From: a virus
Direction: 5' to 3' (one strand)
IMG/VR virus record: IMGVR_UViG_3300025168_000140
Location: 1 to 48,262 of that record
DNA: 48,262 nt
The translations under genes were made by a program, and so were the position numbers. The notes beneath the pieces are model-generated. The model was not told where the DNA came from. It made no database searches and saw only the letters and a program-made list of their open reading frames with translations. Below, in pieces: positions 30,553 to 38,048 of this stretch; within the stretch, counting starts at the first letter, position 1; each line of letters begins with the position of its first letter.

Positions 30553-32160
30553 TTAATTGTCGTCAAGAGGATTACTCTTGCCTACCTCCTTCGTAGCGGC
30601 TGTGGTCTTTTTAGACTCCCTTATAAGTTCTGTGATTTTTGCGTTTAAAGCTGGGTCACTTACAACTTGTGGGACTGTGCCTGACCTTAAAAAGTTCCCG
30701 ATATAACTTAACTGATTTGCTACCTTGGTAGACTCCGCTGTCTTCTCTTTTCTTGTCCGGTCTTCTATCCGATTGGCCTCCTTTAATTCATCAGCAGTCT
30801 TTTCAGTATTAAAATAAGTTCCAACTAAAGCAGCCCCTACACCTATGGCACCTCCGACAGCAGCACCTAAAGGGCCAGCTATCGACATACCAGTCATTGC
30901 GCCGCCGAGACCTGCGCCCAAGTAGTCCCCTTGAGATGCGGAATATAAACCACCTGCTGCGCCTGCTGCGCCGCTGCCAAGCTTAGCAAACTTACCCAAC
31001 TTACCCATGGTCTTACCCATCCCATAAGCTCCCTTTCCACCACCAAGTAAACCCGCACCCATCCCTAACGCATTTACACTTATAGCCAAACTCAGCATAG
31101 CAGGGGCTATGGCAACGATTCCCTTATGAATATCGGGTGCCTTCTCCATGAAGAAATCGTCAGCATTCTTCCTAGATTGAGCAATTGACTTTTGCAAGTC
31201 AGCTTCACTCATTCTCATTTCAGAGGTGATCTTGGTTTCATTTTTCATGGCTTTTGCTAATTGTAGAGTAGCATTATACTGCTGTTCGGTCATGTCAAGT
31301 AGTTTGGCTGAACGTGCAGCCAAACCAGACTTAAAATCGCTCTTTAGCATCTGCTCATTAACCTTTAGCACCTTAGAGAATAAAGGATTAAGGTCAGCGA
31401 TTTCCAACATCCCCTCAGTAACCGCGTTCATTGCCCCTGTCGTACCTCCAAGAGCCTGCTTTCCCATATTATCAAGAGTAGGTAAGATCATCCCCATTAC
31501 CATTTCTATTTGACTTTTCATGCCAACCCCCACACGGCCTTGGAGTTCTTTGGCAACCTCAGACATATTACCCACAGCTTCAGTTCCAAAGAAAGACAGT
31601 GCGTTTAGATTCTCAGCCATTGACTCCATTGTTTCAATTAATCTGTCATTTGAAATAAGGTAGTCTTTACTTATTTTCCTATTTGTTTCAGCGTTCTTAT
31701 TAACAGCCATAACGTCGTTACCTGTTATAGCAAGTAGCTGGGTGTTCACGCCTATGAGAGCTTTAGTATTCTGACCTGTCATGCTCATCTCATCATTAAG
31801 ATGATTCAACTGTTCAGAATTAACACGAATGCCAGCTTCAAAATTAGAAATTAAATTTTCCGATGTCTGTTCGAAACTAGCTTTTCGATCCGTCAGAGCT
31901 TTAGTATTAGCCTCTAAAAACTTATTATAAGTTGTGCCCGTAGCTAAACTACGCAATTGATTTTTATCAAATTTATTAATAGCCTCCGAGAACTTATTAG
32001 TAAAGTTATAGGACGATATTAAAGATTCCGATAAACCAATTAATGACTTATTATTACTTTTGATCAGCCGGTGAGTTATGGTCTCATTCTTATCTGAGGA
32101 TTCCAGGGCCTCTCTTAGTTTCCTAATCTCTTCCTCTAAATCGTCATTACTTAAAGCCAT
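30553..32160 (-). CDS. Tail tape measure protein
   Basis: The protein has 535 residues. The first 350 residues are helical and charged (EEEIRKLREALESSDK, NRKISKDYLISNDRLIETM). Residues about 350-455 are a long Gly/Ala-rich hydrophobic stretch (AIAPAMLSLAISVNALGMGA, GGAMTGMSIAGPLGAAVGGA), followed by a short charged helix. This is the usual composition of a tape measure, which sets tail length and enters the tube lumen. At 0.15 nm per residue it would fit a tail of about 80 nm, an estimate from length only. It starts at a TAATG overlap with the 125-residue gene. The tail assembly chaperone gene lies upstream at 36.6 kb, separated by the primase island. Confidence 0.78.
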   Translation of the reverse strand: MALSNDDLEEEIRKLREALESSDKNETITHRLIKSNNKSLIGLSESLISSYNFTNKFSEAINKFDKNQLRSLATGTTYNKFLEANTKALTDRKASFEQTSENLISNFEAGIRVNSEQLNHLNDEMSMTGQNTKALIGVNTQLLAITGNDVMAVNKNAETNRKISKDYLISNDRLIETMESMAENLNALSFFGTEAVGNMSEVAKELQGRVGVGMKSQIEMVMGMILPTLDNMGKQALGGTTGAMNAVTEGMLEIADLNPLFSKVLKVNEQMLKSDFKSGLAARSAKLLDMTEQQYNATLQLAKAMKNETKITSEMRMSEADLQKSIAQSRKNADDFFMEKAPDIHKGIVAIAPAMLSLAISVNALGMGAGLLGGGKGAYGMGKTMGKLGKFAKLGSGAAGAAGGLYSASQGDYLGAGLGGAMTGMSIAGPLGAAVGGAIGVGAALVGTYFNTEKTADELKEANRIEDRTRKEKTAESTKVANQLSYIGNFLRSGTVPQVVSDPALNAKITELIRESKKTTAATKEVGKSNPLDDN

Positions 32161-33053: not shown

Positions 33054-33847
33054 CCCTTCTTCTCAGCAGCGATCTTCTTTTTTAGTTCCTTCTGCTCGTC
33101 AATCCTCTTGCAGACATCCGTCTCAGAGTGAAACCTTGGGCACGCTTCTTTGTACTCGCACCAGTCACAGAAGATATTCTCTTGTGCCCAGAACTCATCC
33201 TTCTTCTTCTTACGGATCCTCCAGACCTTTTCGATCTGTTGTTTCTTCCATCTATCAATTTGGAAACGTGAGAACTTAACGGCTACAAAGTTACCTGTAA
33301 CTGGGTAGTAGTGAGCGCAGTAAATCTTTTCGTAGGGAACGTCGTAAAGCTTATGAATTGCCCATGCATATCCCTTCAGTTGATTGTCATCCATTAGAGT
33401 CCTCTTCTTCTTTTCCCTCTTGGATGTCTTGTAGTCGATAACTAAATATCCTCCGTCGTTACCTTTAATTACACGGTCGATAACTCCGATAAAAGTTATG
33501 TCATTTTTCTCATCCAAAGGAACACTTACCATTTGCTCAGTAGACATGGTTTCACCCATCTTCTGATTCCATAGTATAAAGTTCTCTAAGCAGGACTTCA
33601 TCCTGTCATTCTCATGGAATGGGACCTTGTAAGTGGGGCGTTCTTGTTCAGCTATCTTCAAGAGGGACTTCATGTCCTTCTCTTTGTATCCAATCTCAAA
33701 GATCTTGTGAATGAAGGATCCGAAGTTCAACGCATCCTCATTCTTAGCTCCGAAGCCCGGTAATCTTTCTATATATCTCAGCTTGTATTTCCATAGGCAC
33801 TGGTCTATGATGTCACTGCGAGAGGCACTAATATTATTTATAAACAT
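33050..33847 (-). CDS. PD-(D/E)XK exonuclease with Fe-S cluster cysteines
   Basis: The protein has 265 residues if it starts at the ATG at 33847 (MFINNISASRSDI). The frame also permits a TTG at 33886 and an ATG at 33865, but these would sit deeper in the primase gene. The RecB/Cas4-like nuclease motifs are visible: G43xxxH47 (GSFIHKI), D124 (GVIDRV), D138-Y-K140 (VIDYKTSK) and Q156xxxY160 (QLKGYA). One cysteine at 17 and three at 227, 230 and 236 (CDWCEYKEAC) match the 4Fe-4S arrangement of the AddB/Cas4 group. It probably acts in DNA replication or recombination. The gene is divergent from the primase and the two ATG codons share CATG. Confidence 0.85.
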   Translation of the reverse strand: MFINNISASRSDIIDQCLWKYKLRYIERLPGFGAKNEDALNFGSFIHKIFEIGYKEKDMKSLLKIAEQERPTYKVPFHENDRMKSCLENFILWNQKMGETMSTEQMVSVPLDEKNDITFIGVIDRVIKGNDGGYLVIDYKTSKREKKKRTLMDDNQLKGYAWAIHKLYDVPYEKIYCAHYYPVTGNFVAVKFSRFQIDRWKKQQIEKVWRIRKKKKDEFWAQENIFCDWCEYKEACPRFHSETDVCKRIDEQKELKKKIAAEKKG

Positions 33848-34796
33848 GGGATCCGATTCTTTCATTAGAAAATACTGTTTGGACAAGTTTCACTCTAATT
33901 ATAGACTTTGTAGCGACGATACAGAACTAGTAGTTCCATCTATCTTCGTGAAAGATGACTATAAGAGGCACATGTCCATCAATACAGAAACGGGCCTATG
34001 GCGTTGTTTCAAGACTGGTGAGGTAGGCAACTTCCTTAAACTATACTCCAACCTAGAGAAGTGCAGTTACCGTGAAGCTTATGAGAAGTTCGTCTTCGAA
34101 GACTTCATGAACTCATACTCTACCCCTAGGAAGTTTGAGGAGTTCGATCCTGATAAGATCGAGTCTAACCTTGAGGAGTCAGAACATTTTAAAGTAGTTG
34201 AGGATCATCCTCTGATTCAATCCCGCATGTTAGACCAATTTAAGTTCTACATTGCAACGGGAGGCAGGTATCGGGGCAGGTTAATTATTCCTTTCATTAA
34301 CCGCAACAACAAGCTGTTCTACTTTCAAGGTCGAGCCTTAGGCGACGAAAAGCCCAAGTATTTGAACTGCAAGAATCTTAGAAGCTCTCAAGTCCTATAC
34401 CCCTTTGATTATGGCTCTCAGGAGCCTCTGTACATCACTGAGGGAGTCTTTGATTGCCTAAGCCTACAGGCAGTAGGGTTGAACGCAACGACCACTCTAA
34501 GCTGTTTTACGAGCCGTGATCAGATGCTACAACTGAGTCAGTATCGTGGTCCTCTCGTCTGCGCGTTTGATAGTGATGAGGCAGGAACTAAAGGCCGTAA
34601 GAAGTTCATGGATCTAGCTCACTGGATTAGGAGAGATGATTTGCTCACCGTTGTCCCACTCCATCCCTTCAAAGATTGGAATGAGATACTAGTTAAGAAA
34701 GGCCCTGATTTCCTAAAAGACCAAGCAGAGAAGACTCTAAAGCTTGACCCCCTTTACATCCAGTGCCTAGCGTATGATAAAGGCCATATCATTTGA
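33846..34796 (+). CDS. 61: DNA primase, T4 gp61-like (TOPRIM)
   Basis: The protein has 316 residues from the ATG at 33846 (MGSDSFIRKYCLDKF); a longer frame to 33711 would lie inside the nuclease gene and is unlikely. The TOPRIM core is clear: YITEGVFDCLSLQAVG (186-201, with Glu189) and CAFDSDEAGTKGRKKF (229-244, with Asp232 and Asp234). The N-terminal zinc-binding part is recognisable but eroded: LWRCFKTGEVGNFLKL (51-66) has Cys54 but Thr57 where the second cysteine usually stands. It makes RNA primers for lagging-strand replication with the gp41-type helicase. T4 gp61 is 342 residues. Its last 30 bases overlap the end of the 314-residue structural gene on the other strand. Confidence 0.8.
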   Translation: MGSDSFIRKYCLDKFHSNYRLCSDDTELVVPSIFVKDDYKRHMSINTETGLWRCFKTGEVGNFLKLYSNLEKCSYREAYEKFVFEDFMNSYSTPRKFEEFDPDKIESNLEESEHFKVVEDHPLIQSRMLDQFKFYIATGGRYRGRLIIPFINRNNKLFYFQGRALGDEKPKYLNCKNLRSSQVLYPFDYGSQEPLYITEGVFDCLSLQAVGLNATTTLSCFTSRDQMLQLSQYRGPLVCAFDSDEAGTKGRKKFMDLAHWIRRDDLLTVVPLHPFKDWNEILVKKGPDFLKDQAEKTLKLDPLYIQCLAYDKGHII

Positions 34797-35711
34797 TACG
34801 ATTGTTTGATTCAACGCATTAAACTTAAGCCTAGCAACGTAGGTGCCTGTCATGGAACCTAGCGTACCATCCAGCAACTTAGGGTGAGTCTTTAGAGCTT
34901 CAGTGTCAAAGTTAAATATAATCGTATTCTCTGAAGTGGTATCCATTACCCCTGAAGTCGCAGAGTAACCTGAAACTTCTACCCTAGCATCGAGGTTGCG
35001 ATCTTGGTTCTTCTTGTAAATCTCAAGCATTGGCTGAGTAACCAACGACTGCTTGAAAAGGTTTGTAATGCTACTATCGATATTAGCATTCTCAAGGGTG
35101 AACTCGTTTGTAAACTTAAGATCAACCTTAGAGCCTAGAACTAAGAAGTTATTCTCCAGTCTAGTAGCAACCCGGAAAAGTAACGGCTCTGTAACACCAA
35201 AGAACCTGTCTTCCGTTAACGTAAAGTCATTTATGATCGTATCTAGGTCAGATCCTGCAACTCTCTTTACCGTCCAAACGTCAATGTAATCTCCGGTAGA
35301 AGATACTCTGTTTGCGATGTTTGTATCACCGGACAGGTTGAATACTCCAAACGGAACAACGGAGTTTGTATCTAAGACGCAAGCATACTTGCCTGTATCG
35401 AGCTTATAGATTCCAGAGGAGTCAGCATCAGCCCCGTAGTTGGAGGCATCAAATATTCTATCCGAGGTAAGAGACGCGCTATTGGAGAAATTCATCAAAA
35501 CACTTCCTGTGACAGAAGCCTTTATCTCTCCTTGTGGCGTTATTACCGAACTAGGGGATTGATTATCAGAAGCGGCAAATACAGAAACTGCACTAATCGA
35601 ATGAGGGTCAACATACTGCCCATCATTGATAAAATACATTATGAGAGCAGTCGGACCCAGCACTGTAGGTCTTTCATGTCTTGTTGTAACTTCGTTTCCG
35701 TTGATTTTCAT
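34767..35711 (-). CDS. Tail structural protein after the tail chaperone, function unknown
   Basis: The protein has 314 residues. It has alternating Ser/Asn-rich strands such as SPSSVITPQGEIKASVTGSV and YKLDTGKYACVLDTNSVV, consistent with a beta-rich virion protein, and a C-terminal strand pair (TYVARLKFNALNQTIVSND). It starts one base after the end of the -1 frame of the gp26-type gene, so it is part of the same tail transcript. No domain is recognised. The gene ends inside the 3' end of the primase gene, an antisense overlap of 30 bases. Confidence 0.6.
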   Translation of the reverse strand: MKINGNEVTTRHERPTVLGPTALIMYFINDGQYVDPHSISAVSVFAASDNQSPSSVITPQGEIKASVTGSVLMNFSNSASLTSDRIFDASNYGADADSSGIYKLDTGKYACVLDTNSVVPFGVFNLSGDTNIANRVSSTGDYIDVWTVKRVAGSDLDTIINDFTLTEDRFFGVTEPLLFRVATRLENNFLVLGSKVDLKFTNEFTLENANIDSSITNLFKQSLVTQPMLEIYKKNQDRNLDARVEVSGYSATSGVMDTTSENTIIFNFDTEALKTHPKLLDGTLGSMTGTYVARLKFNALNQTIVSNDMAFIIR

Positions 35712-35712
35712 G

Positions 35713-35880
35713 CTAACTCTCCATCTTCTTTACTTCTTCGGTGTAAAAATTAATAAAGGTTAAACGCTCTTTTTGAGTCATACCCTTCACATCCGAATAA
35801 GTTAATCCAACTTTATTTACTAATATATACGCTTGATAAAGAAGATCCTCTGAGGATAAACTGGTAGTTAGCTCACTGAA
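35713..35880 (-). CDS. -1 frame extension of the tail assembly chaperone (frameshift ORF)
   Basis: After TTT at 35882-35880, a -1 shift re-reads base 35880 and continues as FSELTTSLSSEDLLYQAYIL, then 35 further residues, to TAG at 35715-35713. This gives 55 added codons and a 303-residue fusion. The frame has no plausible start codon with a ribosome binding site. It ends one base before the next ATG at 35711. The peptide is helical and charged, with protein-like hydrophobic spacing, and the region would otherwise be a noncoding gap of about 155 bases in a genome with almost none. The organisation copies the GT frameshift product of lambda. Whether the shift happens, and how often, cannot be seen from DNA. 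Confidence 0.72.
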   Translation of the reverse strand, partial: FSELTTSLSSEDLLYQAYILVNKVGLTYSDVKGMTQKERLTFINFYTEEVKKMES

Positions 35881-36623
35881 AAAAAAGACACGTCCATCGG
35901 GACTGACATAGTCTCCGAATGGCTACATTCTGGACACTCGAAGATAAACCTAGGATTAACCCCAAATTCCCCCTTGTTAATCTCAGAAATGAGCTTCTTA
36001 ATGTCTTGAATGTGCATACGCTTTAAAGCCTTTGAAACGAACACTGGGTCAGGATTATCATTAATTGAGACTATAAAACGATACAAGTTCTTGTAAACGT
36101 CTTCAGGAGTCGAAAGGAATACCTCCTCCTTACTACGGGGAAACCTGACCTGGGCCTTCACCTTAAGCTTGGGAAGATTAATTTCTCTGGGATCTTCTAA
36201 CTCATCAGGAACCTGAGTCATATTCAGGTGCTCAGATAAAACTAAGGAAGTTTTAATCTCAGAAGCGCAAGCGGGGCAAGTAATATTAAAGTCATAGCTC
36301 TCTCCATAGGATACCTCTCTAACCTTCATTAAAAGATACATCTTATCCATAGATAAGAGATCATCAACGTTAACCCCTATCACTGACTTCTCAAGAAGCT
36401 TAGATACAATATCCGTGTTTCCATCTTTAACACCGAGTATCTTCTGTTCATCCAGGAAAGTTAAAGGAGAAATCTCAACTCCTTGGAACCCAGGATAAAA
36501 TTTACCTTTTGATGGTAATTCAGTTATCGCCATCGCTTCGTCGCTACAATCTACAAATAGCGCATTTAAGGCATCTTCCCGAGGGTCTCCCGAGTTTCCT
36601 ACAATTTGTTTGTTTTTACTCAT
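35868..36623 (-). CDS. 26: Tail assembly chaperone / baseplate protein, T4 gp26 family
   Basis: The protein has 251 residues. Residues 35-110 carry the gp26-type core: ELPSKGKFYPGFQGVEISPL, DEQKILGVKDGN, DIVSKLLEKSVIGV and SMDKMYLLMKVR. It also has two CxxC pairs, CPAC at 116-119 and CPEC at 230-233, which probably bind zinc together. T4 gp26 is 208 residues and is needed for baseplate hub assembly. In this window the gene lies upstream of the tape measure in the same direction, as tail chaperones do, and ends at a slippery T-run. This supports a chaperone that binds the tape measure. It is divergent from uvsW with a 36-base gap. Confidence 0.7.
   Translation of the reverse strand: MSKNKQIVGNSGDPREDALNALFVDCSDEAMAITELPSKGKFYPGFQGVEISPLTFLDEQKILGVKDGNTDIVSKLLEKSVIGVNVDDLLSMDKMYLLMKVREVSYGESYDFNITCPACASEIKTSLVLSEHLNMTQVPDELEDPREINLPKLKVKAQVRFPRSKEEVFLSTPEDVYKNLYRFIVSINDNPDPVFVSKALKRMHIQDIKKLISEINKGEFGVNPRFIFECPECSHSETMSVPMDVSFFSVS
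35880..35886 (-). promoter_or_regulatory. Slippery heptamer T TTT TTT for -1 frameshifting
   Basis: On the minus strand the gene reads GTG TCT TTT TTT TCA in the zero frame, so the heptamer X XXY YYZ is T TTT TTT in the correct phase. The full run is eight T residues (35879-35886). It lies three codons before the zero-frame stop at 35870-35868. A downstream stem-loop stimulator was not identified by eye. Confidence 0.7.
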
Positions 36624-36659: not shown

Positions 36660-38048
36660 ATGAGGATTACGGTAGGTAATTTAATGTCCACCCTGGAAAC
36701 AGATAACCCAAAGATTATATCTGCTTTAAGGGATAAGTATGCATTCAATGTTCCAGGTCACGAGTATTCTCAAGCATATCGAAATAGACGCTGGGATGGC
36801 AAGAAGAGATACTTTGGAGCTAACGGTAAGTTTAGGACTGGGCTTTTATCTCGTATATTAAAAGACTTAGAAGCAATTGGAGTAGAAGATATAGATTGGA
36901 ACAATAAGCCTGAAGAGGTTGAACCCTTTATCCCGAGGGTTGAAAACTTTGAGTATCGTGAATACCAAGAGAAGGCAATATATGAATGCCTTAAAAAGAA
37001 GAGGGCAATCATTGATAGTCCTACTGGGTCAGGTAAGACCCTAATTATGGCAGGGTGTGTTGCTGCGCTCCAACACGGAAATGATGATCTTCACGCTATC
37101 GTATTGTTTAGGGAGAAGGGTATCTTAAAACAAACTTACGAGTTTTTCAAGAAGTGTGGAATTAAGAATCTAGGATTCAACTCAGGAGAGGGATTCGTAG
37201 AGGGTAAGATTATGCTTTCCACAGTTCAGAGTATTGAGAAGGTAGTAGATTCCCATCTTAAAACATCTGAACTTCTCATGGTTGACGAAGCGCATCAATT
37301 CTGCAACGGGGAAACAACCATAGCAGCCGTTGAGAGCTTCCCTAATGCCCTCTACAGGCTCGCATTCACTGCTACGCCACCCAGAGAGGTATCTAAGACT
37401 GTGAACGCTAGGATGGTCTTAGAGGGCGCATTTGGTTCTGTGTATACGACTAGAACGGCGGAGGAATTAATCAAGGATGGAAGTCTAGCTAAACCAATTA
37501 TTCAAGTTATTGATAATGCCCCTGTGTCATCTGTAGATTCTAAGCTTACCTATCTGGAAGTGTATGATCAGTATATCGTTAACTGTGACACGCGAAATGA
37601 TAAGATCAAAACTGTTGTATCTAAAGTGTATCGTTCCAATCCAAACGCTAAGATTTTAATTTTAGTAAAGAATCTCAAACATGTTGAGAACCTACAATCC
37701 AGGATAAAGAATTGTTACACTATCGAAGGTAAGGATGATATTGGCAGCAGATACGATATCATTAAACAATTCGTAGACGATAAGAAGCCTGCTACGATTG
37801 TAGGAACCAATGTCATGCAGACAGGTATCAGTATTGATGAGATTACCCACATGATTAACGCTAGAGGGCTAACAGGTGAAGTTCCAACACTACAAGGCTT
37901 AGGACGTGGTATAAGAAAAGCCGAGGGTAAGGATACTATGTATTTCTACGACTTCTATGATCGGATGCCCTACTTAGAGCAGCATTCTAAAAATAGAATA
38001 AACCATTACAAGAGATTAAAGTTTGAGGTAAACAATGTCCGATTCTAA
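36660..38048 (+). CDS. uvsW: ATP-dependent helicase UvsW-like (SF2)
   Basis: The protein has 462 residues; T4 UvsW has about 500. Visible SF2 motifs are SPTGSGKT (Walker A, 120-127), VDEAHQ (DEAH, 209-212), LAFTATPP (motif III, about 234-241), and a C-terminal helicase domain ending with a Q-x-x-G-R-x-x-R type motif (TLQGLGRGIRK, about 417-427). The N-terminal 100 residues include WDGKKRYF, as in UvsW. UvsW remodels branched DNA and R-loops during phage replication and recombination. The gene is alone on the plus strand with a small partner, between the head and tail blocks of the other strand. No Shine-Dalgarno sequence is visible. Confidence 0.88.
   Translation: MRITVGNLMSTLETDNPKIISALRDKYAFNVPGHEYSQAYRNRRWDGKKRYFGANGKFRTGLLSRILKDLEAIGVEDIDWNNKPEEVEPFIPRVENFEYREYQEKAIYECLKKKRAIIDSPTGSGKTLIMAGCVAALQHGNDDLHAIVLFREKGILKQTYEFFKKCGIKNLGFNSGEGFVEGKIMLSTVQSIEKVVDSHLKTSELLMVDEAHQFCNGETTIAAVESFPNALYRLAFTATPPREVSKTVNARMVLEGAFGSVYTTRTAEELIKDGSLAKPIIQVIDNAPVSSVDSKLTYLEVYDQYIVNCDTRNDKIKTVVSKVYRSNPNAKILILVKNLKHVENLQSRIKNCYTIEGKDDIGSRYDIIKQFVDDKKPATIVGTNVMQTGISIDEITHMINARGLTGEVPTLQGLGRGIRKAEGKDTMYFYDFYDRMPYLEQHSKNRINHYKRLKFEVNNVRF

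Follow-up and report, generated by a model that had tools for sequence, protein, structure and literature searches.

In phage lambda, gpG and gpGT are produced from one start, since ribosomes slip by -1 near the 3' end of the gene at the heptamer GGGAAAG and continue into an extension encoded in the -1 frame. A 2016 recoding review describes this G-T frameshifting as widely conserved "except T4" (PMC5009743). The T4 proteins gp26 and gp51 have been listed as hub assembly chaperones (PMC3004832), and the structures 2OB9, from HK97, and 3KLU, of YqbN, have been classed together as tail assembly chaperones (PMC9603447). For T4-like phages, the study of Vladimirov et al. (2022) is cited in the PRFect paper for phages in which a short gene and a fused long gene take the place of frameshifting (PMC10885494), and in the Adele paper for -1 signals of the poly-T type in the chaperone genes of such phages (PMC12846349). 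As far as these citations go, T4-like tail assembly chaperones had already been identified, and the original prediction, which knew of no description of such slippage for gp26-type proteins, needs correcting on this point. Because such poly-T signals are, according to the citation in the Adele paper, already published, the site presented here is a further well-supported example of a known frameshift trick and not a new kind.

The window, meaning the whole stretch of 48,262 nucleotides that was analysed, is a viral contig of 48 kb and probably a fragment. Its genes are of the T4-related contractile-tailed type, including a T4-type portal, a terminase, a gp25-like wedge protein, a UvsW-like helicase and a primase. 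The primase-like gene (33711-34796) and the UvsW-like helicase gene (36660-38048) lie on the plus strand, interleaved among the minus-strand tail genes. The gp26-type gene (35868-36623, minus strand) is located upstream of a candidate tape measure gene, with several genes between them. This candidate (30553-32160, minus strand) encodes 535 residues with a Gly/Ala-rich hydrophobic stretch and was assigned by position and composition; the protein has no significant family or phage match, PHROG included, and part of the tape measure of Bacillus phage SP-15, scanned against PHROG, likewise gave none.

At the 3' end of the gp26-type gene, the minus strand reads TCT TTT TTT TCA GTG AGC TAA (35888-35868). 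This places the heptamer T_TTT_TTT (35880-35886), which is part of a run of eight T (35879-35886), in the X_XXY_YYZ phase required for -1 slippage, and the zero-frame stop TAA (35868-35870) is the fourth codon past the heptamer, with three sense codons between. The -1 frame segment (35713-35880, minus strand) continues for 55 codons to a TAG at 35715-35713, and the ATG of the next gene (34767-35711, minus strand), which encodes a 314-residue protein with no function assigned, starts one base past it. The fused frame, join(36623..35880, 35880..35713), would encode 248 + 55 = 303 residues, compared with 251 for the zero-frame product. The coordinates and lengths given in the original prediction all agree with the sequence. 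So does the absence of a usable start in the -1 frame: this frame is open for 12 codons before the slip, none of which is ATG, GTG or TTG, and the first possible start is a GTG at codon 32, already inside the C-terminal domain. Most relatives also have no ATG, GTG or TTG in the -1 frame before this domain. Since no start codon precedes the domain in the window and in most relatives, a frameshift is the simplest route to its translation. The T run taken alone is unremarkable, as three runs of eight T are observed in the window against 6.8 expected.

We consider it very likely that a -1 programmed ribosomal frameshift yields a short and a long tail assembly chaperone of this T4-related marine phage. 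Here, most ribosomes would halt at the TAA and release the 251-residue short form, the gp26- or G-like product. A minority would slip back by one base on U_UUU_UUU while decoding Phe-Phe and read 55 more codons, giving a GT-like product of 303 residues with a helical C-terminal domain, the proposed "T" part; both forms would share one start. By analogy to lambda, the shared N-terminal part may coat the tape measure protein and the C-terminal extension may recruit tube subunits, and neither form would need to remain in the virion. That the slippage is ribosomal, as well as its efficiency and the roles of both forms, is our inference.

The likeness to lambda includes a short and a long product from a single start by -1 slippage near the 3' end (here predicted), the extension in the -1 frame, a position upstream of the tape measure gene (here putative) and a chaperone-like N-terminal fold (here modelled). 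The slip sites differ, GGGAAAG in lambda and TTTTTTT in the window. Also in contrast to lambda, the gp26-type protein is larger, it carries two CPxC motifs and several genes precede the candidate tape measure gene. The extension resembles lambda T by position and frame, not by demonstrated homology.

On the protein level, the zero-frame product matches PF12322 (T4_baseplate, gp26) over residues 34-248 with 67.5 bits at a cut-off of 24.5 (E 1.8e-18) and PHROG 150, "baseplate hub", with an E value of 1.4e-19. The two CPxC motifs, at residues 116-119 (36267-36278, minus strand) and 230-233 (35925-35936, minus strand), are zinc-ribbon-like by sequence and gave weak zinc-ribbon matches below the Pfam cut-offs. 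The predicted structure of the zero-frame protein has a pLDDT of 84. With VIA-align, its top solved match is YqbN of B. subtilis (3klu; Z 5.5, 3.3 Å, 79 residues aligned), followed by the HK97 tail assembly chaperone (2ob9; Z 5.1, 3.2 Å, 74 residues aligned). Both matches are confined to model residues 27-108 and a Z of about 5 is modest; only the N-terminal domain is matched, with 8-10% identity over the aligned part. Foldseek alone against the PDB gave no significant match for this model. The best match among viral predicted structures is a "baseplate hub" protein of SP-15 (E 5.8e-15), the gene of which sits between the tail tube and tape measure genes, the classical chaperone position. At the level of the model, a chaperone-like fold of the N-terminal part is supported.

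The conservation of the site was followed in relatives gathered by a protein search of viral contigs that was blind to the slip site. This search gave 37 loci, 36 of which cover the gene end; at 61-100% identity, all 36 have exactly eight T CAGTGAGCTAA in unchanged phase, together with the early stop and an open -1 frame. The codons preceding the run (GGT, AGT, AAT, TCT, ACT) all end in T. A further search, started from a relative that shares about 50% identity with the window's protein, added 11 complete sites of a more distant clade (~50% identity), and again the eight T, the stop soon after and an uninterrupted -1 frame are retained in every one. As judged from sequence, the combination of site, phase, stop and downstream frame is not due to chance, since run, phase, stop and frame are kept in 36/36 and 11/11 relatives. 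The slippery run and the -1 frame are shared by dozens of related contigs, and both computational checks named in the original prediction thus turn out in its favour; prokaryotic genome contigs were searched for relatives as well and none were found.

On the nucleotide level, 27 distinct sequences were compared over a 321-nt region (median identity 77%, minimum 67%). The longest invariant stretch of this region is the 20-nt TTTTTTTTCAGTGAGCTAAC (35867-35886, minus strand), which starts at the T run, and the next longest is 6 nt. A scan of IMG/VR for the exact TTTTTTTTCAGTGAGCTAAC 20-mer found 54 contigs, with every copy at the 3' end of a gp26-type gene. One member of the distant clade, L239, carries CAATGAGC in place of TTTTTTTTCAGTGAGCTAAC; the changed base lies just downstream and the eight T are intact, so variation is possible in the flank while the run itself is kept. 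The flank CAGTGAGCTAAC (window 35867-35886) is conserved beyond the demand of dual coding: replacing C by T in AGC/CTA would alter no residue in either frame, yet this change is absent from all 27 sequences. This flank may act as a sequence-specific stimulator. A downstream pseudoknot or hairpin was rejected as a candidate, as RNAalifold and shuffled controls gave no significant stability and only a weak ATCC...GGAT hairpin appeared; a stimulator of this kind is not obligatory for a -1 site.

The substitution pattern separates the -1 frame from its neighbours. Past the zero-frame stop, pN/pS is 0.17 for the -1 frame, which is stop-free in 27/27 sequences, whereas the other two frames have values of 1.38 and 2.31 and are all interrupted by stops; before the slip, the zero frame gives 0.19. 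By these ratios, the -1 frame evolves as a protein under coding selection. Its 55-residue domain is conserved across the relatives and is predicted to form three helices. At the slip site itself, F247 and F248 are invariant in 35 sequences, distant ones included. Phe-Phe is conserved family-wide at the protein level, so its presence alone proves no frameshift and it is the choice of codon that is informative. Both Phe codons, 247 and 248, are TTT in 33/33 sequences, compared with 225 TTT and 149 TTC (~60% TTT) among all other Phe codons and with mixed usage at eight other conserved Phe positions. The third base of the codon before the Phe pair is T in 33/33, whatever residue is encoded. The sequences behind these slip-codon counts share ancestry, which is why no probability is attached to them.

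A related arrangement is found in the cyanophage-type gp26 loci. In 80/80 of them, T_TTT_TTC stands at the same place and is followed by one codon and the stop, and the -1 frame spans 61-70 codons unless cut off by the contig end. A separate search that overlaps this one in part showed the same heptamer in 50 rows. In Syn30 (L044:3529-3708), the unannotated stretch past gp26 contains an open -1 frame behind T_TTT_TTC. The Kyanoviridae gp26/gp51 genes have in common with the window the PF12322 family, a slippery T-rich heptamer on the conserved Phe-Phe, the early stop and, in the -1 frame, a helical domain some 60 residues long. They differ in the heptamer T_TTT_TTC, in the stop after one codon and in a -1 frame ATG present in many of them; gp26 is about 20-25% identical to the window's protein and the extension is without a significant match.

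Of the explanations that dispense with a ribosomal shift, transcriptional slippage is the serious rival, even though we regard it as unlikely. Here, RNA polymerase would add a U on the eight T, and part of the mRNA would carry the fused frame with no shift of the ribosome. Transcriptional slippage is known to occur on runs of 8-9 T or A, and it is the run of eight, not the minimal seven, that is invariant. However, the eighth T is also constrained by coding in both frames (TCA / TTC), and in the cyanophage homologues the corresponding run stops at six T and continues with C (80/80). This is a classic heptamer for ribosomal slippage, whereas RNA polymerase would probably not slip efficiently on so short a run. 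A one-base sequencing or assembly error that hides a single gene of 303-304 residues would fit the continuous fused frame and the error-prone nature of homopolymers, yet exactly eight T and the same early stop recur in contigs from many metagenomes whose surrounding sequences differ by up to a third. With this conservation (36/36 and 11/11) across different metagenomes, the error is ruled out for practical purposes.

It is also quite improbable, although less so than an error, that the domain is made as a separate small gp51-like gene by reinitiation or translational coupling past the TAA. This route would draw on the -1 frame ATG that lies just past the slip in 61/80 cyanophage-type loci and on the annotation of a separate 64-residue gp51 in S-SSM7, an annotation that this ATG explains; coupling is possible in those phages. 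In the window, in most relatives and in 16/80 cyanophage-type loci, however, no start precedes the domain, and a separate gene would leave the fixed slippery codons unexplained.

In T4, gp26 and gp51 both match PF12322 (E 8.8e-64 and 3.9e-52; T4 locus L046:4303-5729), gp26 thus being of the same family as the window's protein. The longer gp51, a paralogue of gp26, carries an additional stretch at its C-terminus and so corresponds to the long form; this extra stretch is matched by the profile of the cyanophage extension with an E value of 3e-7 in a one-sequence search. Unlike the window, T4 has two separate, divergently oriented genes, and its gp26 ends in GAG TTC TTT GAG, which is not slippery. 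T4 therefore appears to encode the short (gp26) and the long (gp51) form in two genes. Within seven contigs of the window group of 40-64 kb, all of them fragments, no second PF12322 gene was present. As a separate observation, T4 gp26 weakly matches PHROG 1140, a gp28-type hub distal subunit (E 9e-4).

In comparisons by hhalign and hmmsearch, the window's -1 domain shows no significant direct homology to the extensions of the cyanophages and of T4 gp51 (E ~0.04-1), and it has no match in PHROG, including PHROG 634, the C-terminal domain of T4 gp51. The alignments nevertheless follow a collinear pattern, in which a first helix is followed by YS.., M..xER and a last helix. This pattern and the position suggest that the domain is homologous to the C-terminus of gp51. 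The tie of gp26 proteins to the G/GT class of chaperones, which had been put forward from the single locus, gains support from the fold match to HK97 and YqbN, the cyanophage-type heptamers and gp51 as a gp26 paralogue with a helical C-terminal extension.

These results give gp26-type proteins, often recorded as "baseplate hub" and truncated by gene callers, a clear frameshift site of deep conservation, and they support reading T4 gp26/gp51 as a tail assembly chaperone pair. Annotations of the gp26 family merit a check for slippage, since some records (e.g., Syn30) lack a domain of roughly 55-65 residues.

Further arrangements were seen within the family. In SP-15, Listeria LIS04, Streptococcus GXN1, L128, L245/L246 and LR756508, gp26 is followed by a similar stretch of helices in the +1 (or -2) frame. 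At the gp26-type gene ends of SP-15, LIS04, GXN1 and metagenomic relatives (L041, L042, L045, L040, L127, L128, L245, L246), this C-terminal domain lies near a conserved Phe-Phe and often near CGA TTY; a frameshift of a different direction within the same family is possible. If confirmed, the gp26 family would reach the same two products by several routes. Taking the -1 sites T_TTT_TTT/T_TTT_TTC of the marine phages and cyanophages together with the +1 or -2 cases of SP-15, LIS04 and GXN1, it is conceivable, with a chance a little short of even, that recoding is ancestral and the commonest route to the long form, that its direction shifted between lineages and that the two-gene layout of T4 was derived by duplication. 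If true, T4 would no longer be the textbook exception. In LR756511, a 595-kb phage (L039:3800-3960), the extension is a separate gene that overlaps the gp26 stop (TAATG).
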